Positions 6,981-28,630 of a stretch of DNA of 29,290 nt are shown here, piece by piece. Each line of letters starts with the position of its first letter. The first letter of the stretch is position 1. A model generated the notes under the pieces. It did no database searches. It saw nothing but the letters and a program-made list of their open reading frames with translations, and was not told the origin of the DNA. Made by a program: the position numbers and the translations under genes. Source of the stretch: a virus; the IMG/VR virus record IMGVR_UViG_3300047361_000061, positions 1-29,290 of that record; one strand, written 5' to 3'.

Positions 6981-8660
6981 ATGGGGATATATAGAGGACC
7001 TGGTGGACCAGGAGACGCTACAACAGACGCAACTGCAGAAGGAACTATTGCTAGTACTAAAGCAAGTGAGGCTGCAGCTAGTGCCTCTGCTGCTTCTGCT
7101 AGTGCAACCTCTGCTTCAGGGTCAGCAACAACTGCTACAGCTCAGGCAGCTATAGCTACAACAAAGGCAACGGAAGCAAGCTCATCCGCAACAAGTGCTA
7201 GTACAAGTGCTACCTCAGCAACGTCTAGTGCAACATCTGCAACTAGTTCTGCAACGTCAGCTACTTCATCTGCTTCTACCGCAACAACTAAAGCTTCAGA
7301 AGCTAGTACATCAGCTACAAATGCTGCTACCTCGGCAAGTAGTGCTTCTACTTCAGCTACAACAGCTACTACAAAAGCTAGTGAAGCAGCTACATCTGCT
7401 ACTAATGCAGCAACTTCAGAAACTAATGCAGCAGCAAGTTATGATTCTTTTGATGATAGATACTTAGGAGCAAAAAGTTCTGCACCAACAGTAGATAATG
7501 ATGGAGATGCTTTATTAACAGGAGCATTATATTGGAATAGTAGTTCTAATAGTTTATTTTTGTGGGATGGCTCTGCATGGAATGCAGCAGCTTTTTCAGC
7601 TTCAGGAGCAGTTACTTCATTTAACACAAGAACAGGTGCAGTTACCCTTTCTAGTGGAGATGTAACAACAGCACTTGGATTCACTCCCTCAGCCTCAGCA
7701 GGAATTTCTAATGTAGTAGAAGATACTACACCTCAGCTCGGTGGTGATTTAGATGCTAATGGTAATGATATTGACATGGGTACTAATGTTATTACTGATA
7801 CTAAAGTTGGTCAATGGGATACAGCATATACTACAACAACAGGACTTGGTGCATTAGCAACTAGAGCTACGGTTGGCACAGCACAAATTGATGATGATGC
7901 TGTAACAGCAGATAAACTAGCTAACTCTATTAATACAGAAATTGCAGCTAATACTGCTAAAGTAACTAATGCTACTCATACAGGGGATGTTACTGGTGCA
8001 ACTGCATTAACAATAGCTAATGATGCAGTTACCACTGCTAAAATTAATCTAGTATCTGTTGGAACTACACCTAGTATAGAAGCTAAAGGTACATCAGGAG
8101 ATACCTCAGGATTTATTCAATTAAACTGTGAAGAAAATACACACGGTATTAAATTAAAAGGACCTCCTCATAGTGCAGGAGCTGATTACACACTAACATT
8201 TCCTAATAATGATGGTAGTGCTAGTGAGTTTTTGCAAACAGATGGTTCTGGTGCTCTTACTTGGGCAGTACCTACAAACACCACTTATACAGCAGGAGCA
8301 GGGTTAAGTCTTGGTGGTACAACTTTTACATTAGATTTAACCAAAGACCAATCATGGACTGGTTCACAAAGAGCAACTGTTATAGATAATACAACCTCTT
8401 TATCATTTGACCAAGATGGTGGTAATAATTTTAAAGCTAGTCCAAGTGGTGGTGGTACATTAACATTTACCAATCATACAGATGGTCAATCAGGATATAT
8501 ATTATTAACCAATGCTAGTAACCATGCTATTACAGCTCATGCTAATACTAAAATTACTGCAGCCGACCTAGCAACTATTAGTGTTACAGGTTCATACTTA
8601 CTATCTTATTTTGATAATGGTACAAACGCTTATATAACTGTAAGTGCATCTTACGGATAA
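6981..8660 (+). CDS. Tail fibre protein with long Ala/Ser/Thr repeat stalk
   Basis: 559 residues. Residues about 15-150 are almost only Ala, Ser, Thr and Lys, with repeated TKASEA / SATSA / TNAATSA units, like the stalk of lambda side-tail fibres. Next come a segment reading YWNSSSNSLFLWDGSAWNAA, the phage-fibre motif FNTRTGAVTLSSGDV (about 213-228) followed by ALGFTP, and repeats of the type DDAVTADKLANSINTEIAAN. The C-terminus is a beta-rich region (FDNGTNAYITVSASYG). It probably trimerises and takes part in host recognition. The repeat DNA is a likely site of recombination. The start uses GAGGAC weakly and probably depends on coupling with the upstream gene. Confidence 0.85.
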   Translation: MGIYRGPGGPGDATTDATAEGTIASTKASEAAASASAASASATSASGSATTATAQAAIATTKATEASSSATSASTSATSATSSATSATSSATSATSSASTATTKASEASTSATNAATSASSASTSATTATTKASEAATSATNAATSETNAAASYDSFDDRYLGAKSSAPTVDNDGDALLTGALYWNSSSNSLFLWDGSAWNAAAFSASGAVTSFNTRTGAVTLSSGDVTTALGFTPSASAGISNVVEDTTPQLGGDLDANGNDIDMGTNVITDTKVGQWDTAYTTTTGLGALATRATVGTAQIDDDAVTADKLANSINTEIAANTAKVTNATHTGDVTGATALTIANDAVTTAKINLVSVGTTPSIEAKGTSGDTSGFIQLNCEENTHGIKLKGPPHSAGADYTLTFPNNDGSASEFLQTDGSGALTWAVPTNTTYTAGAGLSLGGTTFTLDLTKDQSWTGSQRATVIDNTTSLSFDQDGGNNFKASPSGGGTLTFTNHTDGQSGYILLTNASNHAITAHANTKITAADLATISVTGSYLLSYFDNGTNAYITVSASYG

Positions 8661-23188: not shown

Positions 23189-23217
23189 ATTATACAACAT
23201 TAACAAACCTTTGTCCA
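23189..23217 (-). promoter_or_regulatory. Promoter P5, - strand, for DUF3310-nrdJ
   Basis: On the - strand: -35 TGGACA (complement of 23212-23217), 17-bp spacer, -10 TATAAT (complement of 23189-23194). The -10 contains the TAA stop of the upstream exonuclease gene. The bases around the -10 (TTGTATAATATT) resemble P4. Confidence 0.7.
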
Positions 23218-23945
23218 ATCTCTTTTTCAAGAAGATTTCTTTTCTCTCTAAACCAAGTACCACAATCAACACATTGTCTTCGTTGATACTTACTAGAGTT
23301 AGTATAAGCAAAACCTCTTCGTTGGTGATGAGTTCCACCACAGTTTGGACAAACTAATACTTCATCATTAAATAATGACATATTAATATGATTTTTACAC
23401 CAAGGCTTGAACTTCTCATAGACACGTTCTAAGAGTATAACATCATTCTTGTTATATTCCTCCATGATTGCCCATGCTTCTTTGTCACGACTCATACAAC
23501 GAAGCCCAAGTTCATGCCCTTGATGTTCGGTCTTCTTTCCCAACCCAAGTTGTTGAGCTACATAATCAAGTTTGTTAGAAACAAATCTAAATTGTCTCTT
23601 AGCTACTGACAGTAGGTCAATTTGTTTTGAGGGAGAAGGAGGATTCATCCCTGCTAGTAAGAACTCCTTATTGAGAGTAGGAATATCAAACTTAGCACCG
23701 TTATAGTGAATGATAGCATCTGCATCATCTAATAACTTATGAGCAGATTTTAACATCTTCTTATGTGAAGATTTTAATACACTATCAAACATTACTTCAT
23801 CCTCTCCTAACCATTTCGCTGCATAGCAGATGGTACGAGAAGACTCTAGTAATTGGTTTATTGAGACATTTTGTTGCCATATACCCCATACCGAGGCTGT
23901 ATTAGGCGAAGTCTCTATATCAATAAGTAAAATTTTAGGACTCAT
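23190..23945 (-). CDS. DEDD-type 3'-5' exonuclease with C-terminal zinc ribbon
   Basis: 251 residues from ATG 23945; this start has AAGGAA seven bases upstream and begins MSPKILLIDIETSP, the first exonuclease motif. An in-frame start 39 bases earlier would add 13 residues without motif value. Further acidic motifs are AIIHYNGAKFDIPTLN and the final EYNKNDVILLERVY, so the full DEDD RNase H-like set is present. The last 60 residues hold a zinc ribbon: CPNCGG, then CVDCGTW after about 25 residues. It may trim or proofread DNA or process RNA; it is separate from the polymerase's own exonuclease domain. Its stop lies within promoter P5. The zinc-ribbon fusion is notable. Confidence 0.82.
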   Translation of the reverse strand: MSPKILLIDIETSPNTASVWGIWQQNVSINQLLESSRTICYAAKWLGEDEVMFDSVLKSSHKKMLKSAHKLLDDADAIIHYNGAKFDIPTLNKEFLLAGMNPPSPSKQIDLLSVAKRQFRFVSNKLDYVAQQLGLGKKTEHQGHELGLRCMSRDKEAWAIMEEYNKNDVILLERVYEKFKPWCKNHINMSLFNDEVLVCPNCGGTHHQRRGFAYTNSSKYQRRQCVDCGTWFREKRNLLEKEIGQRFVNVV

Positions 23946-24102
23946 CTTTTGTTTCCTTATTAGTTTGAACATAAGACGCACCATTAGTATTAAACTGATT
24001 TGAGTTAGGTTTGCTATTAAATACTTTATTCCAAGCCTCTTCTAAATCTTCATCAGTTACTTGTTGTGGTCTTCTTTTGCTACCTTTTCCTCCATCACTC
24101 AT
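23935..24102 (-). CDS. Small phage protein with MSDGGKGS start
   Basis: 55 residues, from ATG 24102 with AAGGAG eight bases upstream. The start MSDGGKGSKRRPQQVTDEDL followed by EEAWNKVF is a pattern seen in small proteins of many T7-like and marine podoviruses (typically ending in a D-IFG-like segment). The C-terminal half is Asn/Lys/Thr-rich and probably disordered. It overlaps the exonuclease gene by 11 bases and the upstream gene by 8. No function known. Confidence 0.75.
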   Translation of the reverse strand: MSDGGKGSKRRPQQVTDEDLEEAWNKVFNSKPNSNQFNTNGASYVQTNKETKDES

Positions 24103-26130: not shown

Positions 26131-26158
26131 ATTATACCACAATTATATAACTTGTCAA
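26131..26158 (-). promoter_or_regulatory. Promoter P4, - strand, before ssb
   Basis: On the - strand: -35 TTGACA (complement of 26153-26158), 16-bp spacer, -10 TATAAT (complement of 26131-26136). The -35 includes the TGA stop of the polymerase C-terminal gene. The ATTGTGG before the -10 matches P1 and P2. It would raise SSB and exonuclease levels above those of the polymerase. Confidence 0.83.
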
Positions 26159-26871
26159 GCATTTTCCCAAACTTTCATATCCTTCCAATTACGTCCAATT
26201 TGTACCTCAGCTTTCATAGGTAAATTAAACTCTACACCAAATATTTTCTGAAAGTTTTTAGGTACATCTTCAAACACTTGTAACATCATTGCAGATAATT
26301 CATCTACTAAGTTTTTTTCACAATCAATAATAATTGAATCATGTACTGTGTTTACTAGCTTAGCATTTTTATACTTACCTTTCATACGATTGTATAAAGA
26401 CACTCTTGCAATTGTCATAAGGTCAGCACCCAATCCTTGAACAGGATAATTTAATATCGTAGTTCTAGGATATTTCTTTTTACCATACTGCATAGTAGGT
26501 TCAAACTGATAAACTCTACCAGTTGGTAAGGTAACTTTTTTAGTTGATATGGCTTCTTGCACAAGCTTAATGTGCCATGTATGAAGTCCTTGATACTTTG
26601 CATAAAACTCATCAATAACCTTTTGCCAAAACTTTTCTGACTTACTAACCTCAGCAAAGTTAGGGTCATTTGCATAACTAAAAGCACTACCACCATAGAT
26701 AAGTCTAAACACAAATGTCTTTGCTATGAGTCTAGAGGGTAGTCCAAACCTATTCTGATTATCTGTATGTTGGTCTACATCATTCCATATCTCTTGATAG
26801 GCTGTCTTATCTTGACTTAAAAATCCTGCACATCTCCACTCTAATGCTGAAGCGTCCCCTTGTATTAGCAT
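26155..26871 (-). CDS. polA: Family A DNA polymerase, C-terminal (palm/fingers) half of a split gene
   Basis: 238 residues. It starts MLIQGDASALEWR, polymerase motif A (Asp6 = catalytic). Motif B is SRLIAKTFVFRLIYGG (Arg47, Lys51, Phe55, Tyr59); Phe55 equals E. coli Phe762. Motif C is NTVHDSIII (Asp178). The palm and finger catalytic residues are therefore complete. The exonuclease, thumb and motif 1 are missing here and are encoded separately at 27330-28496. It has its own perfect ribosome binding site (TAAGGAGGTAAA before ATG), so it is translated independently. The two products must associate to make an active polymerase. Confidence 0.93.
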   Translation of the reverse strand: MLIQGDASALEWRCAGFLSQDKTAYQEIWNDVDQHTDNQNRFGLPSRLIAKTFVFRLIYGGSAFSYANDPNFAEVSKSEKFWQKVIDEFYAKYQGLHTWHIKLVQEAISTKKVTLPTGRVYQFEPTMQYGKKKYPRTTILNYPVQGLGADLMTIARVSLYNRMKGKYKNAKLVNTVHDSIIIDCEKNLVDELSAMMLQVFEDVPKNFQKIFGVEFNLPMKAEVQIGRNWKDMKVWENA

Positions 26872-26880
26872 TTTACCTCC

Positions 26881-27168
26881 TTATAATATAGTACATCCTT
26901 TATGTTCCATGCAAGGATAATCTGAATATAACTTACCACTGCATACGTTTCCTGTTACTCTTTGTTCTTTCTTGGTAAATAAATCAATTACCATTTCTGT
27001 TGTTGTGTCTTCCCCTTGTATTATTGCCCTACCATCATATATGTACTTACTTCTATCTATAAATCTATAGTATTCATTAGTAGGAAAACTAACTATTAGA
27101 CTGCAACTTTGCAACATTATACAAATTAATAGGAGGCAAACTAATTTCTTTTCATAAGAGACATTCAT
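26881..27168 (-). CDS. Putative lipoprotein inserted between the polymerase halves
   Basis: 95 residues. The N-terminus has a basic start (YEKK) and a hydrophobic run (LVCLLLICIMLQSC) ending in a lipobox LQSC, with Cys22 as the likely lipidated residue. The mature part is short with three further cysteines near the end (GNVCSG, YPCMEH, KGCTIL). It lies nine bases before the C-terminal polymerase gene and overlaps the previous small gene by 17. It would sit in the envelope, unrelated to replication. Roles such as superinfection exclusion or spanin are possible; neither is shown. Confidence 0.72.
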   Translation of the reverse strand: MNVSYEKKLVCLLLICIMLQSCSLIVSFPTNEYYRFIDRSKYIYDGRAIIQGEDTTTEMVIDLFTKKEQRVTGNVCSGKLYSDYPCMEHKGCTIL

Positions 27169-27328
27169 CTTCTTTATTACTCCAATCTATATGTTCAATT
27201 TTAGATAAACTTAGTCCAGGCTTTTCTTGTATAAAACGTTTAGCTGATTCTTTATCTTTAAATCGTTTTACAACATAGCCATCTGTATCTACTACATTAT
27301 AATTAAAATCCCATTTTGTAGTTTCCAT
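27152..27328 (-). CDS. Small hypothetical protein between the polymerase halves
   Basis: 58 residues starting METTKWDFNYNVVDTDGYVV, then KRFKDKESAKRFIQEKPGLS, ending WSNKEDECLL. It looks like a compact alpha/beta protein with a basic central helix. Its ATG is one base after the stop of the polymerase N-terminal gene, and the last two glycine codons of that gene (GGAGGG) form its ribosome binding site. No family recognised; no nuclease, intein or intron-encoded motif is present. Confidence 0.7.
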   Translation of the reverse strand: METTKWDFNYNVVDTDGYVVKRFKDKESAKRFIQEKPGLSLSKIEHIDWSNKEDECLL

Positions 27329-27329
27329 A

Positions 27330-28496
27330 TTACCCTCCGTACCTTGAATAAAATAACTCTTTTATTTCTCCGTCAAAATTTTGTAGATTCGGTCTTGAGG
27401 AACTAAGACGACCAGTTCTAGCAACACACTGGTTGAGTTGCCCATGTAGTTTACCTTCAAGCCAACCTTGAGTTTGTCTGAGTTCGGGCAGTCCTTGATA
27501 GTAAGTTCCTCTACGTTTCTCAAGTCCATTCCTTTTAAGGATACGTTTAATAACTTCTTTAGCGTCTTTTGTACCCCTAAGACTTCTAAGCGTTTGTTCA
27601 TCTGTGCTGAAATATCCATCTTTCTTTAACTCACTCCCTTTTAATGGCTCTACTATCCTAGGTAGTTTATATGTATAGTCTACCCACCCAAACTTATCCT
27701 CACCTTTTCTAGCTCCTGTTTTATATGTGCCAACCAGTTCTTTCTTAGGTATCGTAACATCTCCTCCATAAAGCAAACAACTGAGATGGTCATTGCTATT
27801 AAAATTAATATCGTCCACACCACAAATATCCACAAGCTCTTCATCAATTTTAGTAAGCTCTTCTTGCATAGCTTTCCCAAGTTCAATAGATTTTTTTTCA
27901 TCATACAAAATTCCATTATATTCCATCTCCTCTAAAACTTTTAAGTCTTGGTTATGTAAACTAATCAGTCTTTGTCTTTCAGGAGGACATTGTGTAACCT
28001 CCTCTTGCTGTTTTTTAAGAACTTGATAAGTTACCTCTAGGTCTTTCTGTAAATACTCTTCAAGTAAATCTTTTGGTACATCAGGAGTATCTATACCTTT
28101 ACTCCAATACTCATCATGTACAACATCTAACTTCTGTTCTAATCCATAATGCTCGGCAACTTTATTTAAAGATGGATAAGGTGCAGATTGATTTTGCAAA
28201 ATAAAATGTACCAACTGTCCGTCCCATATTCTATGGTTAGAAAAATCTATCCCATACTTACGCACCCAATGCAAGTCAAACTTAGCATTAAAAGCCACAA
28301 GACAATCATATTCATTTATAATATTTTGTATCTCTTCTAACTTCTTACGATAAGGGTCATCAGAATATTCTATGTCAAATATATGACTAGTCTTCCCATC
28401 ATACAATCCAACATAACACAACTTATTATTAACTGAAAAAGGGCTACCCTTATTCGTAGTAGTAGTCTCTACGTCCAATACTAAATATTTAGTCAT
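27330..28496 (-). CDS. polA: Family A DNA polymerase, N-terminal (3'-5' exonuclease/thumb) half of a split gene
   Basis: 388 residues. The exonuclease domain has YLVLDVETTT (Asp8, Glu10), AFNAKFDLHW (Exo II) and EYLQKDLEVTYQV (Exo III), so proofreading is expected. A thumb-like region follows, and the protein ends just after motif 1, ARTGRLSSSRPNLQNFDGEI, with KELFYSRYGG and a stop. In intact enzymes motif A comes directly after this point; here it begins the separate gene at 26871. Together the halves total 626 residues, a normal phage PolA size. The start overlaps the stop of the upstream Cys-rich gene (ATGA). Confidence 0.93.
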   Translation of the reverse strand: MTKYLVLDVETTTTNKGSPFSVNNKLCYVGLYDGKTSHIFDIEYSDDPYRKKLEEIQNIINEYDCLVAFNAKFDLHWVRKYGIDFSNHRIWDGQLVHFILQNQSAPYPSLNKVAEHYGLEQKLDVVHDEYWSKGIDTPDVPKDLLEEYLQKDLEVTYQVLKKQQEEVTQCPPERQRLISLHNQDLKVLEEMEYNGILYDEKKSIELGKAMQEELTKIDEELVDICGVDDINFNSNDHLSCLLYGGDVTIPKKELVGTYKTGARKGEDKFGWVDYTYKLPRIVEPLKGSELKKDGYFSTDEQTLRSLRGTKDAKEVIKRILKRNGLEKRRGTYYQGLPELRQTQGWLEGKLHGQLNQCVARTGRLSSSRPNLQNFDGEIKELFYSRYGG

Positions 28497-28630
28497 TTCT
28501 TTTTTTTCTCCTTTTTCGCTTTACATATTCCTTTGCTTGTTAAAAAGTCAACTCCACACCACCACTTTTTATTATCAAATATTTTTGCAACACCTTTACA
28601 AACATTACACTTTCTATCCAATGTCTTCAT
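28493..28630 (-). CDS. Small Cys-rich, Lys-rich protein (possible zinc finger)
   Basis: 45 residues: RKCNVCKG, then KKWWCGVDFLTSKGICK and a Lys-only tail (AKKEKKKK). The four cysteines (CxxC, then C and C ten residues apart) could hold one zinc. It overlaps the helicase gene by 17 bases and the polymerase start as ATGA, so it is translated as part of the operon. It may bind DNA or RNA near the replisome; no family recognised. Confidence 0.72.
   Translation of the reverse strand: MKTLDRKCNVCKGVAKIFDNKKWWCGVDFLTSKGICKAKKEKKKK

Follow-up and report, generated by a model that had tools for sequence, protein, structure and literature searches.

The 29,290-bp stretch of viral DNA analysed here (the window) carries its family A DNA polymerase (PolA) as two genes, with the break between motif 1 and motif A and two small genes lying in between. 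This raises the question of whether the two products are working parts of one enzyme, and of how a replication gene came to be cut at this point. The reading that we favour, with a probability of roughly 0.78, is that the locus encodes a natural two-subunit family A polymerase, a 'gene in pieces' with an old, clade-fixed fracture whose break point is a hot spot for HNH endonuclease genes.

Two polymerase genes and the gap between them

The features of the locus are all on the minus strand:

27330..28496 (-), N-part of the split family A DNA polymerase, 388 aa (ORF list, Pfam, PHROG, dN/dS)
26872..27329 (-), 458-bp gap between the polymerase genes (coordinates of the flanking ORFs)
27152..27328 (-), 58-aa cargo gene (ORF list)
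26881..27168 (-), 95-aa predicted lipoprotein (signal peptide and lipobox LQSC, the lipobox read from sequence)
26872..26882 (-), 8-nt Shine-Dalgarno match AAGGAGGT, immediately 5' of the C-part ATG and sharing bases with the lipoprotein stop codon
26155..26871 (-), C-part, 238 aa, its first residues being motif A (ORF list, Pfam, PHROG, dN/dS)

Both polymerase ORFs lie exactly where the initial annotation had placed them, and their lengths add up to the 626 residues that it gave for the joined protein. The N-part holds a 3'-5' exonuclease domain (PF01612, E=2.1e-6) and the N-terminal part of the polymerase domain (PF00476, E=2.5e-19, model positions 53-132), and ends just past motif 1 (RTGRLSSS...LFYSRYGG); the motif 1 stretch reads RTGRLSSSRPNLQNF, and RTGRLSSSRPNLQNFDGEIKELFYSRYGG directly precedes the stop codon. 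The C-part opens with motif A (MLIQGDASALEWR), intact in the window, with five residues ahead of its Asp, and continues through motif B (RLIAKTFVFRLIYGG) and motif C (VHDS), matching PF00476 (DNA_pol_A) with E=7.5e-29 over model positions 154-381. On the PHROG 17 profile, the N-part covers positions 669-1002 and the C-part 1008-1238. Since the coordinates of both profiles continue across the halves, no conserved residue has been lost, as originally claimed. PF00476 spans motifs 1, A, B and C, and the exonuclease motifs DxE, NxxxFD and YxxxD are all present, which identifies a family A polymerase with 3'-5' exonuclease.

PolA is thus broken into two ORFs between motif 1 and motif A, as in the phage MEP401, and, in the manner of genes in pieces, one ancestral gene (in one piece in the outgroups HMO-2011, HTVC033P and VpV262) is represented by two separately translated genes with nothing lost. 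The endonuclease gene that also marks genes in pieces was not found in the window gap by Pfam, PHROG or inspection of the gap; it is missing from some known cases as well, such as 44RR.

The description of the insert as nearly all coding was accurate: 448 of its 458 bp are coding, and the 58-aa and 95-aa genes overlap by 17 bp. Because 458 is not divisible by three and stops occur in all frames, a read-through fusion is excluded, in agreement with the earlier view of a stable two-gene polymerase rather than a frameshift. The ribosome binding site noted for the C-part is also borne out, its 8-nt Shine-Dalgarno match being unique to the window among 138 relatives with intact motif A, most of which have 3-5 nt. 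The 58-aa cargo gene has no Pfam or PHROG match and nothing similar among GenBank phages. A relative, 48% identical, lies near the primase gene of contig L062 (3592-3765), outside the polymerase gap, suggesting that cargo is mobile within the replication module. The lipoprotein matches phrog_7228 weakly; no relative was found, and GenBank phages gave no match. In the near kin L015, L059 and L060, nothing is inserted and the halves overlap by 7 bp; most simply, then, the cargo was gained between already separate genes. Judging from such comparisons, gap cargo appears to come and go between genes that are already apart.

Three other genes of the window were noted. A 45-aa Cys-rich (CxxC) protein gene at 28493..28630 (-) overlaps the start of the N-part by 4 bp, and a similar gene also precedes the N-part in L062. 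The replication module includes, besides the polymerase's own exonuclease, a second exonuclease-like gene at 23190-23984 (-), with RNase_H_2 and a Zn-ribbon-like end. At 6981-8660 (+) is a probable tail-fibre gene with a long, repetitive, Ser/Ala/Thr-rich start.

The break across relatives

Relatives were collected by tblastn of both halves against phage records and by scans of 2.9 million viral contigs. The scans yielded 194 loci with both halves, corresponding to 143 distinct junctions. All 140 junctions of the clade, the window included, share the same break codon, with no fused copy; the remaining three are the outgroups HMO-2011 and HTVC033P plus ICP2, which our script scored as fused, its stop being earlier. 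By tblastn, we found the same split in the OM43 phages MEP401 and MEP402, in Alcaligenes phage QDWS535 and in two uncultured Manatee Spring genomes. The search of related contigs proposed in the initial annotation has therefore recovered the break throughout, and the notion that it is a peculiarity of this phage has to be given up: the split is a known but unexplained oddity of its clade, already published for MEP401/402 (PMC10580990). Gaps occur in each of the three relative frames, from an overlap of 17 bp to a spacing of 3598 bp, and their content varies. In one Manatee Spring genome (L002:9158-12756), the halves are 3.6 kb apart, and the genes between them include one for a cytosine methyltransferase and several small ones.

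Many relatives have in the gap a member of a small acidic protein family (~60 aa, EEAYFYHTLGDFE...; for example L063:7161-7340, L010:5019-5213 and L007:5161-5394) that occurs nowhere else in the loci scanned and could bind the split enzyme. The split might itself be adaptive, by allowing the exonuclease half to act alone or the halves to differ in dosage, with gap proteins such as this family regulating or bridging them. The confinement of the family to the gap and the lack of a single re-fusion in 140 junctions both speak for such a role. We nevertheless regard it as unlikely: in the stretches scanned, the family is missing from the window gap and from all relatives with overlapping halves, gap content is highly variable, and re-fusion, which needs precise in-frame deletions, may simply be rare.

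Much less probable is that the gap is a spliced intron, group I or other, whose removal unites the two parts in the mRNA, as was suggested for MEP401/402 (PMC10580990). Introns are common in phage PolA genes, and the PolA of Bacillus phage Moonbeam is interrupted near the same point by endonuclease genes. Motif B of the C-part is also the site of an HNH insertion in two relatives (L056:3900-4650 and L057:5440-6000), whose polymerase is thereby in three pieces, and the L056 insertion gives a weak group I intron match. Against splicing at the break itself, no Rfam intron was detected in the window or in the loci with an HNH gene in the gap, and the halves of many relatives overlap by 1-17 bp in different frames, leaving nothing to splice. 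Moreover, the gaps, mostly coding, are of no uniform length or content, and each C-part has its own start codon.

Both polymerase genes are under purifying selection. In comparison with near kin, dN/dS is 0.09-0.12 for the C-part and 0.12-0.18 for the N-part, which together with 140 junctions at the same place excludes chance or artefact; the break appears to be old and fixed in the clade. Identities of the N- and C-parts correlate across 131 contigs (r=0.84), and this correlation and the low dN/dS indicate that both halves are working and evolving together. Recombination between the window halves was rejected, as the nearest neighbours of the N- and C-parts agree (L015/L059/L060/L062/L010) and their identities correlate. 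A decaying polymerase in a phage dependent on another enzyme is slightly less credible than an intron: the window is only a genome fragment (its helicase gene is cut at the record end) with room for another polymerase elsewhere, but dN/dS is 0.09-0.18 over the two halves and all exonuclease and polymerase motifs are kept. A second PolA, which the initial annotation had said would count against the split polymerase, is absent from the 29,290-bp record, and none was found in relatives of 33-53 kb or in one circular genome.

The polymerase alignment was built from in-frame pseudo-joined rows, and the structure model is a pseudo-joined single chain of one relative (L093) with stops read as Gly. 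This model has a pLDDT of 83.5 and matches Klenow/Bst structures with E of about 1e-22 to 1e-23. The break falls in a low-confidence loop between the strand at 381-382 and the motif A strand at 405-410. A cut in a loop between two palm strands would allow the chains to fold into one palm with no residue lost, and we infer that the halves assemble in trans. Marine phage metagenomes do contain fractured genes with split inteins, yet a split intein joining the chains after translation has a negligible chance of being the explanation here: there is no intein Pfam match, and the N-part ends 13 residues past its own match to Pfam while the C-part has only 5 residues ahead of the motif A Asp, which leaves no room for intein halves.

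HNH genes and interrupted motif A

A minority of relatives have a free-standing HNH gene in the gap (PHROG 3322 endonuclease and others). Motif A is interrupted in 12 of the 13 HNH rows of the tree versus 1 of the 138 non-HNH rows (Fisher p=9e-16, with rows that are not independent but related by descent). The interruption point in the HNH rows lies a few codons into the C-part, between the motif A Asp and the E-W pair; L089 and L057 bear an HNH gene but have motif A intact. On the tree, each trait changes 11 times. Among independent pairs, HNH gene and interruption go together in about 5 of 6 and never in opposite directions, which alone gives p=0.06.

Empty-site pairs reveal the insertion directly. 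Alignment of L172/L169 with L189, and of L082 with L085, places the insertion inside the motif A Asp codon. The C-body proteins of L189 (HNH, interrupted) and of L169/L172 (no HNH, intact) are identical over the region compared. The inserted segment of L189 starts in the Asp codon and comprises, in order, a dead stub of the old start, the HNH gene, a Shine-Dalgarno sequence and a recoded copy of the start (ATG TTA CTC CAA GCG GAT GCA AAA CAA CTT) with an out-of-frame junction to GAG TGG; the second pair follows the same pattern. The site beside motif A is a landing site for mobile HNH genes. In L313 (3325-3840), an HNH-type endonuclease gene is fused in frame with the ten opening codons of the C-part (MAIVNADAKS); a recoded copy of that start and a CTT TAA CTG site come after it.

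Interrupted motif A was found in L162, L189, L291, L289, L084, L085, L086, L209-L214, L003 and L056, and further in L310, L311, L313, L330 and L331. The interruption is a stop or a 1-8 nt shift just past the catalytic Asp, mostly beside an HNH gene, and at least 13 different interruption sequences were seen. Six-base kinds take the form Leu-stop-Leu (CTG TAA CTG, CTA TAG CTA, CTT TAG CTC, CTT TAG CTG, CTT TAG CTT and CTT TAA CTG), with one CTT TAG CCC; others are CTT T CTT, CTT C CTT, CAA ATATG CAG CTT, +1 and +2 insertions and a -1 deletion. Matched Leu codons often flank the interruption, while L211 and L209 have no matched landing codon. A Shine-Dalgarno sequence of 6-8 nt precedes 12 of the 13 interrupted rows, versus mostly 3-5 nt in intact relatives. 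Features of a gene 60-type bypass cassette are thus present in most HNH-bearing relatives and not in the window.

Across the entire collection, D-A-K-x-L-[any codon]-L-E-W occurs in 15 places: all five in split PolA have a stop in the middle, whereas all ten elsewhere have a sense codon. Likewise, the five contigs matched by the CTT-N-CTT pattern are all contigs already seen as split PolA. Leaving aside L056/L057 and the outgroup-type L276 and L005, only two of about 150 rows show a frame break elsewhere in the polymerase. No second PolA was found in the records of the interrupted relatives, including one circular genome. Codon reassignment was discarded because TAA, TAG and TGA all end long ORFs in relatives and it would leave frame-shifting indels unexplained; sequencing error was discarded because identical interruptions recur in separate contigs. 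No suppressor tRNA gene was found near the interrupted C-parts. In circular genome MW202697 (L003:5971-6054), a tRNA-Leu (UAA) gene lies just downstream of the C-part with the +1 interruption.

The interrupted relatives therefore probably need ribosomal bypass, by hopping or slippage that restores D-A-K-x-L-E-W. We consider it likely that HNH cassettes interrupt motif A, that the ribosome hops or slips to D-A-K-x-L-E-W, and that the changed site is shielded from the endonuclease. Where the interruption was acquired recently, as in L189, a conserved C-part is only weak evidence that it functions.

Origin of the break and known systems

In the two-subunit polymerase that we propose, chain 1 would run from the 3'-5' exonuclease through the thumb into the palm as far as motif 1, and chain 2 would supply the fingers together with motifs A, B and C. 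Each chain would be translated from its own start, with two small cargo genes between them in the window, and the two would fold together into one palm. In relatives, an HNH gene has inserted at the motif A codons, bringing a strong Shine-Dalgarno sequence and a recoded start and leaving a short interruption behind. The original break would go back to an endonuclease event in the ancestor, and the window lineage, where the endonuclease is absent, now carries ordinary cargo in the gap.

An endonuclease event in the ancestor is the most likely origin of the break. We only infer it, because 138 of 151 rows lack an HNH gene, many halves overlap with no insert, and HNH genes could have entered a gene that was already split. 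The same doubt has been voiced for gene 43 of phage 25, where the endonuclease may have invaded an already split gene (PMC2988022). The proposal of the initial annotation that cargo had replaced an old mobile element at the break is supported for the site, where HNH genes of relatives lie between the halves or within motif A; for the window itself, replacement is only a possibility, as the gap has no endonuclease remnant and no remnant of a displaced C-part start. The strong Shine-Dalgarno sequence of the window, elsewhere a mark of HNH-bearing relatives, hints at an HNH past but does not prove it.

Few enzymes have been studied as thoroughly as family A polymerases, and a natural two-chain form cut through the palm offers a ready-made split polymerase for mechanistic and engineering work. 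At one conserved site, the clade presents a series of overlapping halves, cargo, free endonuclease and interrupted motif A, and these natural variants allow the tracing of how phage genes become genes in pieces.

The closest described system is that of MEP401 and MEP402 (group I, Zobellviridae), OM43 phages whose split DNA polymerase was published in 2023 and seen in most group I relatives (PMC10580990). Break, domain allotment and replication module are as in the window, with identities of 60% for the C-part and 52-53% for the N-part. The gaps differ, MEP401/402 having the small acidic protein where the window has the 58-aa gene and the lipoprotein. The published study noted a small ORF between the halves and suggested an intron without deciding (PMC10580990); our analysis argues against the intron and adds the link to HNH genes. 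PolA of Vibrio phage ICP2_2013 (NC_024791) is also split between motif 1 and motif A, with a separate start, but its break (L005:7140-7170) lies about 16 residues earlier, after NLQNISN, and consists of a single in-frame TAA with no cargo. This is a second fracture point, and probably a separate event. The nearest one-piece PolA genes found, those of HMO-2011, HTVC033P and VpV262, are uninterrupted and share 28-35% identity in the C-part.

Outside family A, the replicative polymerase of Aeromonas phages 25 and 44RR is, as in the window, encoded by two genes (43A/43B), but it belongs to family B and to T4-like phages. The halves of phage 25 gene 43 co-purify and polymerise, the split NrdA of Aeh1 works, and 44RR has a split DNA polymerase with no endonuclease (PMC2988022).

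The best parallel for the HNH-bearing relatives is T4 genes 39/60, with mobA and a 50-nt bypassed insert (PMC2988022, PMC5009743). Ribosomes bypass the insert in gene 60, which may protect from the nuclease (PMC5009743). Both systems have two working chains, a homing endonuclease site and an interruption near the start of the downstream half. They differ in the enzyme and in the interruption, a 50-nt insert in T4 but lineage-specific stretches of 1-8 nt inside a catalytic motif in the relatives; the window, unlike T4 39/60, has neither endonuclease nor interruption. If bypass does operate in these relatives, the near-solitary T4 gene 60 gains many short natural counterparts that can be tested by simple reporters. 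The T4 gene 60 bypass would then recur in compact form within the clade, with the window as a lineage free of it.
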